Below are positions 1,653-3,053 of a DNA stretch of 64,000 nt, one piece after another. Both the position numbers and the translations under genes were made by a program. Source of the DNA: Gimesia fumaroli (GTDB taxonomy: Bacteria > Planctomycetota > Planctomycetia > Planctomycetales > Planctomycetaceae); contig NZ_CP037452.1 of NCBI RefSeq assembly GCF_007754425.1, positions 2,951,164 through 3,015,163 on the forward strand, read 5' to 3'. The notes under the pieces are model-generated. The model searched no databases and was not told where the DNA came from. It saw only the letters and a list, made by a program, of their open reading frames with translations. Each line of letters begins with the position of its first letter. The first letter of the stretch is position 1.

Positions 1653-1789
1653 GTAGGGTGCGGACCCATGTGTCCGCCCGCCTGGCGAGATTGGAATTGG
1701 ATCACGCATGCAAAGGTCGCAGGTTTGACGTTCAAGCGACGACTCATCGAAGACATCAACCCCGCGGGTCGTCACATGGGACGACCCCT
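1653..1789 (+). repeat. Dispersed hairpin repeat, copy B, 5' part (hairpins 1 and 2)
   Basis: Copy B begins GTAGGG at 1653 and is split by the IS110 element. Hairpin 1 has arms GCGGAC (1660-1665) and GTCCGC (1672-1677) around loop CCATGT. Hairpin 2 has arms GGGTCGTC (1766-1773) and GACGACCC (1780-1787) around loop ACATGG, the reverse complement of the other loop. The linker between them aligns with that of copy C at 7511-7596, starting GCCTGGCG in both. The 3' module is at 2989-3053. Confidence 0.85.
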
Positions 1790-1840
1790 TGTATCTGCTC
1801 TTGACTGTCTAGAGTTCTTTGTTTTGATAGGCAGATAAAG

Positions 1841-1876
1841 CCAATGTTTCCCGCCTTTAAAGGCGGGAAACATTGG
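1841..1876 (+). repeat. Perfect 36-bp palindrome, 5' hairpin of the bridge RNA
   Basis: Bases 1841-1858 and 1859-1876 are perfect reverse complements (18 bp each, no spacer). The core is GGCGGGAAA and its complement, with TTTAAA at the turn. It lies upstream of the two guide loops, where IS621-type bridge RNAs have a 5' stem-loop. It could be the RNA's 5' scaffold, or could stop transcription entering from outside the element. Confidence 0.9.
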
Positions 1877-2021
1877 TGGCGAGTGTCAGATCGTGACGAC
1901 CCCTGGTCTTAAAGACCGATTCGTAGCTAGATCGCCACTCGCTTCTCATGCCTTAACCCGTACAGTCGCCAGAGCGGTGCCACAACACCAGCTCGTATTT
2001 GCAAGGAAGGGCCTTAGCATG
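1841..2021 (+). ncRNA. Predicted IS110 bridge RNA (target and donor binding loops)
   Basis: The target-binding loop is closed by GCGAGTG (1879-1885) pairing with CACTCGC (1936-1942). Its left guide GACGACCCCT (1895-1904) equals the top strand left of the insertion (1780-1789). Next comes a small hairpin, 1905-1917. Its right guide TCGTAG (1921-1926) is the reverse complement of CTACGA at 2989-2994. The donor-binding loop follows. Its left guide ACAGTCGC (1962-1969) equals the element's right end (2982-2989), although 1970 is C where the core T would be. Its right guide TGCAAG (2000-2005) pairs with CTTGTA (1788-1793) with one G-T wobble. An inner stem joins 1972-1979 to 1986-1994. RNA ends are not known; the 3' part seems to overlap the transposase start. 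The architecture follows the published IS621 model; assignment here is from base matches read by eye. Confidence 0.85.
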
Positions 2022-2972
2022 CATCAGCATAACACAGAAGACGTTGGAATTGATATTTCAAAGTCCAAATTTGATGTCAGTTTCCCAGATCGTTCCAAGT
2101 CCGTCGTTTATCACTACACACCAGCGGGGATGAAAAAGTTCATCGCCACACTCATGAAGCTTCAGCCAAAACGAGTTTGTCTGGAAGCAACCGGCAACTG
2201 GGAAAACAGGCTGGTTGCCTGTCTGCACAAGCACCAGATTCCTGTTTCGGTTGTCAATCCACGTCTGATCCGGGACTTTGCCCGGGCGAAGAATCAACTG
2301 GCCAAGACCGATGAGATTGACGCGCGTATTATCAGGGAATATGCCCAGGTGATGGACCCGCGGCTCACGCCACCTTTAACAGATGCCCAGCGAAAAATGC
2401 GTGAATTTACTTCTCGTCGGGAACAGACCAGCAAGATCATCATCCAGGAAAAGAACCGTCTGGAGACTATCATGGACCAGGACGTCATCGAACTGATTCA
2501 GCAATCCATTGACTTCCACAAAGAACAGCTCAGGCAGATCGAGAAGGAACTCAAGGCACTGATAAACGCCGATGAAGAGTCCCGCAAACGTTCGAAAATC
2601 CTGCAATCGGTACCAGGCATCGCCAGTATCACGGCGGCCCTGCTCATCTCTGATCTGCCGGAACTGGGAACTCTGAATCGGAAACAGATCTCACGGTTAG
2701 TCGGTGTCGCTCCCACGAACCGTGACAGCGGAACCATGAGGGGAAGACGGACGATTGGCGGCGGACGAGTCCGGATCAGGAACGGATTATACATGCCCAC
2801 AGTCACAGCTCTGAGGCACAACCCGATCATCAGTGCGTTCTATAAACGACTCGTCAAAAACGGAAAGCCAAAAATGGTCGCACTCGTGGCCGCCATGCAC
2901 AAACTGCTCATCATTCTCAACACCATGGTCAAAGAAGGAAAACAATGGGAGGCAAACGTGAGAAATTCCTGA
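2019..2972 (+). CDS. IS110-family transposase (bridge recombinase)
   Basis: This 317-residue protein matches the IS110 family in length and motifs. The N-terminal RuvC-like domain shows the DEDD acidic set at D12 (VGIDISK), E56 (CLEATGNWE), D98 and D101 (KTDEIDAR). The C-terminal domain carries [14 protein letters not shown] with S237 as the likely catalytic serine. It would recombine element and target DNA under guidance of the RNA encoded just upstream. I chose ATG 2019 because AAGGAAGG lies about nine bases before it. A longer reading from 1893 would be translated through the guide loops and has no comparable ribosome site. The protein looks intact. Confidence 0.93.
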
Positions 2973-2988
2973 ATTTTTAAGACAGTCG

Positions 2989-3053
2989 CTACGATTTTGT
3001 TGGTGTGGGGCGATCTCTCATTCACCGTTAGACAAGCCAACGGTGCCACCCGC
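2989..3053 (+). repeat. Dispersed hairpin repeat, copy B, 3' part (hairpin 3)
   Basis: This is the continuation of copy B after the IS110 element, including the right CT core. Hairpin 3 has arms CACCGTTAG (3023-3031) and CCAACGGTG (3037-3045); one A-C mismatch breaks the otherwise perfect stem seen in copies A and C. Deleting 1790-2990 rejoins an uninterrupted repeat of about 200 bases. Confidence 0.85.

Follow-up and report, generated by a model that had tools for sequence, protein, structure and literature searches.

IS621 of Escherichia coli, an insertion sequence (IS) of the IS110 group, encodes a recombinase with DEDD and serine catalytic residues, carries its bridge RNA upstream of the recombinase gene, in the left end, recombines at a CT core through left and right target and donor guides, the right donor guide being interrupted, and is known to insert in repetitive extragenic palindrome (REP) repeats (PMC11208160). 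ISPpu9/ISPpu10, ISPa11, ISPsy8 and ISRm19/22 likewise insert in REP repeats (PMC1525189), in other hosts and other hairpins than those treated below, and ISPa11 differs further in being of the IS1111 type, with its RNA downstream (PMC11187229). Covariation of target guides over thousands of IS110 elements, with natural motifs per guide (PMC11208160), and natural redirection between the related IS1111-type elements ISEc11 and ISXne4 (PMC11187229) have both been published, so the mechanism and the principle are already known. Here we analyze an element in a 64,000-nucleotide stretch of the planctomycete Gimesia fumaroli (the window; contig NZ_CP037452.1, 2,951,164 to 3,015,163), which, as read from its sequence, shares the IS621 features listed above, with the guides in the same order, and differs from IS621 in its hairpin family and its planctomycete host. 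Very probably it is a complete insertion sequence whose insertion is guided by a bridge RNA of the IS621 type, and it is an additional, IS621-like member of the group and not a new kind of system. The analysis shows how the element is built, that guides fit targets over its copies, that the fold of its leader is conserved and that its protein has the catalytic residues. A literature search limited to open-licence papers found no description of the element. It adds a compact bridge recombinase (1.2 kb, 317 amino acids) from a planctomycete. What is new beside prior knowledge is its host and the family of repeats that it enters, together with the tolerances suggested for the guides and a guide series within one genome.

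Anatomy of the element and its transposase

The source genome (G000, 7.70 Mb in a single contig; other G numbers denote further genomes and L numbers loci) holds eight full-length copies, a 5' fragment (L009) and a 3' fragment (L010); a further match of 46 bases (L018) was left out of the analysis. Genomes of the same genus carry the element, and any match to it was found in 20 of the 99 related genomes searched. The ends were set from 15 full copies in five genomes and from empty repeats. The features are as follows.

1788-2988, plus strand: insertion sequence of the IS110 group with a single CT core included, the other core lying at 2989-2990, from full copies and empty repeats
2019-2972, plus strand: transposase/recombinase of 317 amino acids with D12, E56, D98, D101 and S237, from Pfam and structure alignments
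2982-2990, plus strand: right end ACAGTCG and core CT (left donor), from its own sequence and the copies
2991-2994, plus strand: right flank ACGA, which is target, its AC completing the CTAC foot, from copies and empty sites
1766-1787, no strand assigned: target hairpin GGGTCGTC-ACATGG-GACGACCC, REP-like, its foot CTAC split by the insertion

The left end (1788-2018, 231 bp) is noncoding and lies upstream of the gene; the right end (2973-2988) is only 16 bp, and the IS1111-type layout, with the guide RNA downstream of the gene, was not found here. The left flank of the element is the hairpin at 1766-1787 and its right flank reads CTACGA. Junctions of the 15 full copies, compared with empty repeats reading CCCCTAC, show no target duplication and place the insertion at the short CT core. 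The original prediction, made from the letters of the window, had the element span 1788-2994; the left end stands, but 2991-2994 is target and not element because the empty sites read CCCCTAC. Its description of the element as complete holds, while the activity that it considered possible is only hinted at by three loci, L005-L007, which are identical within the element and suggest, as far as the letters go, recent movement.

The product matches Pfam PF01548 (DEDD_Tnp_IS110) and PF02371 (Transposase_20) and the NCBIfam model NF033542, 'IS110 family RNA-guided transposase' (226 bits, cut-off 140), and combines a DEDD RuvC-like domain with a Transposase_20 domain bearing the conserved serine, as an IS110-group protein does. 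Among solved transposases, phmmer matched ISCro4 (PDB 9t56, E 2e-38) and IS621 (8wt6, E 8.1e-37); ISCro4, compared on protein alone, is the closest by E-value. D12, E56, D98, D101 and S237 align with the catalytic residues D11, E60, D102, D105 and S241 of IS621 (PMC11208158), where we infer a two-residue offset between the aligned IS621 chain and the numbering of that paper. The DEDD and serine residues are invariant in a six-row alignment reaching down to 39% identity. An intact 317-residue frame is present in 11 of the 15 full-length copies (five genomes); the frame of L002 has 313 residues, those of L023 and L024 run open through query residues 1-314, and that of L021 is interrupted by a stop. 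Among the full copies, the serine position was read in L001, L003, L004, L022, L021 and L023, and in L024, where R replaces it.

A predicted bridge RNA in the left end

The leader (1836-2012) folds at -76 kcal/mol (z -6.25, with 0 of 200 shuffles as good) into a 5' stem-loop, a target loop and a donor loop, as in bridge RNA of the IS621 type. The elements read from it and its surroundings are as follows.

1801-1828, plus strand: candidate bridge-RNA promoter TTGACT-16-TTTGAT, weak (9 of 12 by a simple consensus count)
1840-1877, plus strand: 5' stem-loop of the bridge RNA, with a perfect palindrome at 1841-1876
1878-1943, plus strand: target-binding loop, closing stem 1878-1885/1936-1943
1895-1904, plus strand: left target guide GACGACCCCT, ending with the core CT, from its own sequence and the copies
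1923-1926, plus strand: right target guide GTAG, facing CTAC, from the copies; 1921-1922 also match at this site
1927, plus strand: candidate handshake base C, which can pair with the G before the donor core (compare IS621 position 81)
1962-1969, plus strand: left donor guide ACAGTCGC, identical to the right end 2982-2989
1997-2005, plus strand: right donor guide AU-(UU)-G-CAAG, in interrupted pairing with CTTGTAT at 1788-1794
2003-2010, plus strand: likely ribosome-binding site for the transposase, in overlap with the donor-binding loop and the stem of that loop
2006, plus strand: candidate handshake base G, which can pair with the C before the target core (compare IS621 position 166)

The 5' stem-loop is built on a 36-nt perfect palindrome, in which it differs from IS621; comparison of eight copies showed compensatory changes at three of its pairs. 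The stem of the target loop is uninformative for covariation because it is invariant, and the donor-loop pairs, which vary little or not at all, showed no compensated change among the eight copies. A 7-bp stem proposed to close the target loop (1879-1885 with 1936-1942) is present in the predicted fold and is lengthened there by a G.U pair between 1878 and 1943. In the consensus fold, the donor loop also takes in the start codon.

The two identities on which the original prediction had built, of GACGACCCCT at 1895-1904 with the left flank 1780-1789 and of ACAGTCGC at 1962-1969 with 2982-2989, were both confirmed, and ACAGTCGC is present in the leader and in the right end of all 15 full copies. 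All four guides are arranged as in IS621, in the same order and with the same CT core, as had been claimed. For the right donor guide, TGCAAG (2000-2005) does pair with CTTGTA (1788-1793) with one G.T, but the interrupted scheme of IS621 is better than the six contiguous pairs first supposed; it consists of two pairs (A1997-U1998), two unpaired U, G2001 opposite T and four pairs (C2002-G2005). The fit of the handshake bases is consistency and not a test because C1927 and G2006 are invariant in the aligned copies.

By analogy with IS621, the left end would encode a bridge RNA composed of the 5' stem-loop, the target-binding loop and the donor-binding loop, and this RNA would be made, bound by the protein and direct strand exchange. 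GTAG would pair with the CTAC foot and the donor guides with the joined element ends, and the DEDD/serine recombinase would exchange strands at the CT core, leaving the element at CC/CT/AC.

Target guides and flanks across the copies

The right target guide GTAG, itself invariant over 15 insertions, faces CTAC in 14 of them and CTAT, with one wobble, in the other. The right guide of IS621 is likewise four bases long in the structure paper (PMC11208158). TCGTAG at 1921-1926 is indeed the reverse complement of CTACGA at 2989-2994, as had been noted, but a reading beyond GTAG finds no support over the copies.

For the left target guide, we compared the 20 insertions, in six genomes of one genus (probably Gimesia), for which guide and flank are both present on the left side (nine in G000, four each in G013 and G009, and one each in G002, G010 and G012). 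When the 10-nt left target was slid over the 5' noncoding region of its own copy, the guide position was the best place in 18 of the 20; the two misses were L002 and L003, the best place in L003 being one base off because its C run is one shorter. In register, every position between -10 and -1 inclusive shows Watson-Crick pairing in 14-20 of the 20 insertions; several insertions show wobbles between guide and flank. With the flanks shuffled over all insertions, 0 of 20,000 shuffles reached the observed fit. In 16 of the 20 insertions the left flank is the GTAG-footed hairpin repeat, and L002, L005, L007 and L008 lie outside it. As a null for an element hitting the repeat at random, empty repeats were drawn from the same genome for 10 of the 16 in-repeat insertions (five of G000, four of G013 and one of G002, with G009, G010 and G012 left out). 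The empty-repeat pattern requires CCCCTAC, so that odd repeats fall outside this null, and the guides represent only five genome-guide combinations. When L003 was granted a slip of one C, 0 of 200,000 draws were as good as the observed fit; the number was 15 of 200,000 under strict scoring of L003 and again 0 of 200,000 once L003 was excluded; by genome, there were 3 of 200,000 with the slip and 100 of 200,000 without L003 in G000, and 0 of 200,000 in G013. That the fit lies beyond chance, as had been claimed for the four guides together, is upheld for the left target guide, whose position ranks first in 18 of the 20 insertions and against which empty-repeat draws do not fit as well.

Several results weigh against guided insertion as proposed here. 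L004, L009, L024, L065 and L070 each have one non-wobble mismatch, and L003 needs one bulged C to fit. L002 shares the guides of the window copy, yet its flank scores 5 of 10 in register (7 of 9, counted by eye, if one guide C is bulged); considered by itself, this copy leans toward the refuting case named beforehand, shared guides beside unrelated flanks, and the results for the other copies point the contrary way. Shuffling of flanks within genomes discriminates weakly (643 of 20,000; G000 alone 2681 of 20,000), and G000-only repeat draws, with L003 taken without the slip, are not significant (13,282 of 200,000). Positions 5-7 of the right guide are no better than shuffled flanks over the 15 insertions (4457 of 20,000), nor in G000 alone (3265 of 20,000). 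The candidate promoter, from a weak scan, lies wholly inside the left end and not across the joined ends as in IS621; a stricter promoter scan passed nothing. Finally, Rfam matched no bridge RNA family on the plus strand of the leader, the presence of such a family in Rfam being unchecked.

The rival explanation that survives best, although we regard it as very unlikely, is recognition of the hairpin shape or of the CCCCTAC foot by the protein itself, with a leader that resembles the target only by descent; this predicts insertions in the repeat whatever their guide. The preponderance of insertions in the hairpin repeat agrees with it, as do the CCCT before and in the core, which is invariant in guides and flanks, and a group II intron of the same genome that uses the foot with arms of many sequences. 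What it leaves unaccounted for is that own flanks beat empty repeats of the same genome. Moreover, L005, L007 and L008, outside the hairpin, score 9, 9.5 and 9.5 of 10, while their guide reaches at least 9 at nine and at least 9.5 at three of 125,382 window positions, which shows that sequence is read without the hairpin. L025 carries CACCCT in its guide and again in its flank, in place of the CCCCT common to every other guide, and distant relatives combine other targets with matching guides (see below).

Still less probable is the reverse order of events, in which the guide was copied from the flank after insertion, for example by gene conversion, and guides nothing. The perfect 10-nt identity in the window copy would suit such copying, but the match ends sharply, position -11 pairing in none of the 20 insertions, and L005-L008 have a common guide beside flanks with wobble or single-base differences, a result that copying would not produce; the four-guide arrangement equal to that of IS621 also speaks against it. 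The last alternative, an untranslated regulatory leader hiding the ribosome-binding site, as reported for ISPpu9 (PMC8450116), with target choice otherwise caused, can practically be set aside, since the predicted donor-loop stem does cover the likely ribosome-binding site and start codon but the guide-flank fit is left unexplained, and the two roles are compatible, not exclusive.

With guided insertion as the preferred reading, the copies suggest the tolerances of the guides, namely wobbles, one mismatch, one bulged C and no detected reading to the right of GTAG. Three left guides occur in G000: GACGACC (L001, L002), GTCCGCC (L003, L004, L009) and GTCGGCC (L005-L008). The right guide varies between TTCGTAG and GTTGTAG, GTCCGCC occurs with both, and the copies look mosaic, by eye, at other variable sites. 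Guides may change by mutation or recombination, with copies persisting where a new guide fits. One genome with three left-guide variants, their chosen sites and dozens of empty hairpins as controls is a natural experiment, and makes natural bridge-RNA target change directly testable.

The target hairpin repeat

The hairpin shares with REP repeats a short form with a GTAG foot, tens of copies and a part of them in inverted pairs. An inverted pair of REP hairpins is termed a REPIN, and the genes linked to such repeats are REP-associated tyrosine transposases (RAYTs). The element interrupts such a pair.

1653-1789, no strand assigned: REPIN-like inverted hairpin pair, on the left GTAG (1653-1656) and a hairpin (1657-1679), on the right the hairpin interrupted by the element

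The same inverted layout is found at L097, L112 and L091, and 11 inverted pairs 118-122 bp apart were counted by eye in the repeat list of G000. The GTAG/GTGG-footed hairpin, many copies and inverted pairs that characterise REP/REPIN repeats are all found in G000. Matches to the hairpin pattern and to its reversed control numbered 58 and 1 in G000, 16 and 1 in G002, 43 and 4 in G010, 46 and 0 in G012, 46 and 1 in G013, 33 and 3 in G009, 25 and 6 in G001, and 2 and 2 in G008; a narrower pattern, GGCSNNCACRYGNGSNNGCC, was rejected after two matches. Three of 14 hairpin sites found held the element; the remaining 11 continued with CTAC (eight), CTGC (one), CTAA (one) or an intron (one). Most empty sites are the hairpin followed by CTAC, that is, GTAG and the hairpin on the opposite strand. 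Unlike in REP/RAYT systems, the target hairpin is absent near the four Y1_Tnp genes of G000 (0 of 4 loci flanked by it within about 1.5 kb). One of them, at L085 (G000:C1:2907784), is flanked by a different, GTGG hairpin family, GTGGCACTGTTGGC..., and hairpins like that of L085 (CACCGTT.GACAAGCCAACGGTGCCAC) stand to the right of the intron (about 1463-1489) and of the IS110 element (about 3026-3052).

A near-copy of the hairpin unit upstream carries the group II intron and reads ...CCCCCTA, intron, CGATTTTGTTGG; the right flank of the IS110 element is CTACGATTTTGTTGG, and by this comparison the CTAC foot goes on in the sequence to the right of the element, just as it does in the paralogous unit. 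The two REPIN-like units are nearly alike: one is formed by window 1653-1789 and 2991 onward, the other by G000:C1 about 2950520-2950660 and window 1431 onward. Each then continues with CGATTTTGTTGGTGTGGGG... and a second hairpin; one holds the intron and the other the IS110 element. The intron occupies window 1-1430 (G000:C1:2950661 onward), with an open reading frame at 8-1339 and domain V at 1352-1430, and starts directly after a GTAG-family hairpin, where CCCCTA meets GTGCG. A search whose pattern included CCCCTA and not the hairpin located ten 5' ends of this kind in G000 (L212-L221); by eye, all ten are preceded by a GTAG-family repeat with varied arms, those of L212 and L215 being clearly mismatched. 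As intron 5' ends and IS110 insertions fall at hairpins of one family, two RNA-guided elements share one foot.

Relatives with other targets

Scanning named genomes with a single protein brought up no relatives, and an alignment query did. The copy in a metagenome-assembled genome of Gimesia sp. (L132, 69% amino acid identity) has a guide and flanks identical to those of L023, which points to Gimesia as the genus of the genomes compared above. G057, G017 and Planctomycetes bacterium SV_7m_r were compared by eye, without a null. G057 (49% identity) has the hairpin GGTCCGCACAGCGGACC and the guide ...CGGACCCT, and the target in G017 (39-40%) is CCGCGT/CT/CCGCGG. In SV_7m_r (42%), the right guide GCGGGAG faces CTCCCGC in five of seven copies. 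To the eye, these distant elements seem to obey the same guide grammar with other targets. The seven SV_7m_r copies are L135-L142 without L140; in the five, CTCCCGC stands right of the insertion, and in at least three of these it is a hairpin arm.

The antisense strand and sX15

Rfam RF02234 (sX15, a small RNA of Xanthomonadaceae) matches the window leader over its full length on the minus strand (1873-2022), below threshold (25.2 bits against 55). A scan of 21 other IS110 loci (19 of the 80 relatives found and two more; cut-offs E 0.5 and 2) gave matches at six, all sub-threshold (29.7-47.6 bits, E 9.8e-5 to 0.44), and 15 were without a match. All six are full length, on the minus strand and just upstream of the transposase.

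L162, 2314-2475, minus strand: sX15 match
L144, 2315-2478, minus strand: sX15 match
L189, 2319-2478, minus strand: sX15 match
L153, 2330-2444, minus strand: sX15 match
L140, 2302-2457, minus strand: sX15 match
L180, 2320-2470, minus strand: sX15 match

On a Xanthomonas plasmid, a true sX15 (L222:1950-2108, 150.9 bits) diverges from a short opposite-strand stretch, GIGIDVCKAKLFV, that looks, by eye, like the way an IS110 transposase begins; with the window transposase as query, tblastn found nothing significant in L222 (best E 0.30), and a 98-residue hypothetical reading frame beside sX15 matched nothing in Pfam or NCBIfam. A search of six genomes with RF02234 returned no match at E <= 0.001 and is uninformative, the controls being likewise unmatched. 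The leader of ISPpu9 is reported to cover the ribosome-binding site, and Asr9 is its antisense RNA (PMC8450116). We read sX15 as a likely antisense RNA of an IS110 left end, on the model of Asr9 in ISPpu9; in the literature searched, including PMC6337395, we found no paper saying so. A model of one hairpin strand can match the complement of a like-shaped RNA, and the sX15 matches therefore do not show antisense RNA elsewhere.

We tentatively raise a wider possibility, that IS110 left ends are two-sided, with a sense bridge RNA and an antisense anti-bridge RNA that would anneal to both guide loops and control guide supply and translation, and that the guides of the genus follow the divergence of the hairpin repeat, giving a within-genome retargeting series. 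Such a class of anti-bridge RNAs would include Asr9 of ISPpu9 and sX15 of Rfam. In the window, the antisense part draws on the sub-threshold minus-strand sX15 match and a terminator-like hairpin facing the same way. That hairpin is the palindrome 1841-1876, which is terminator-like on the minus strand (tail CTTTATCTGC; two such sites were found against 1.9 expected) and could thus also end an antisense transcript.

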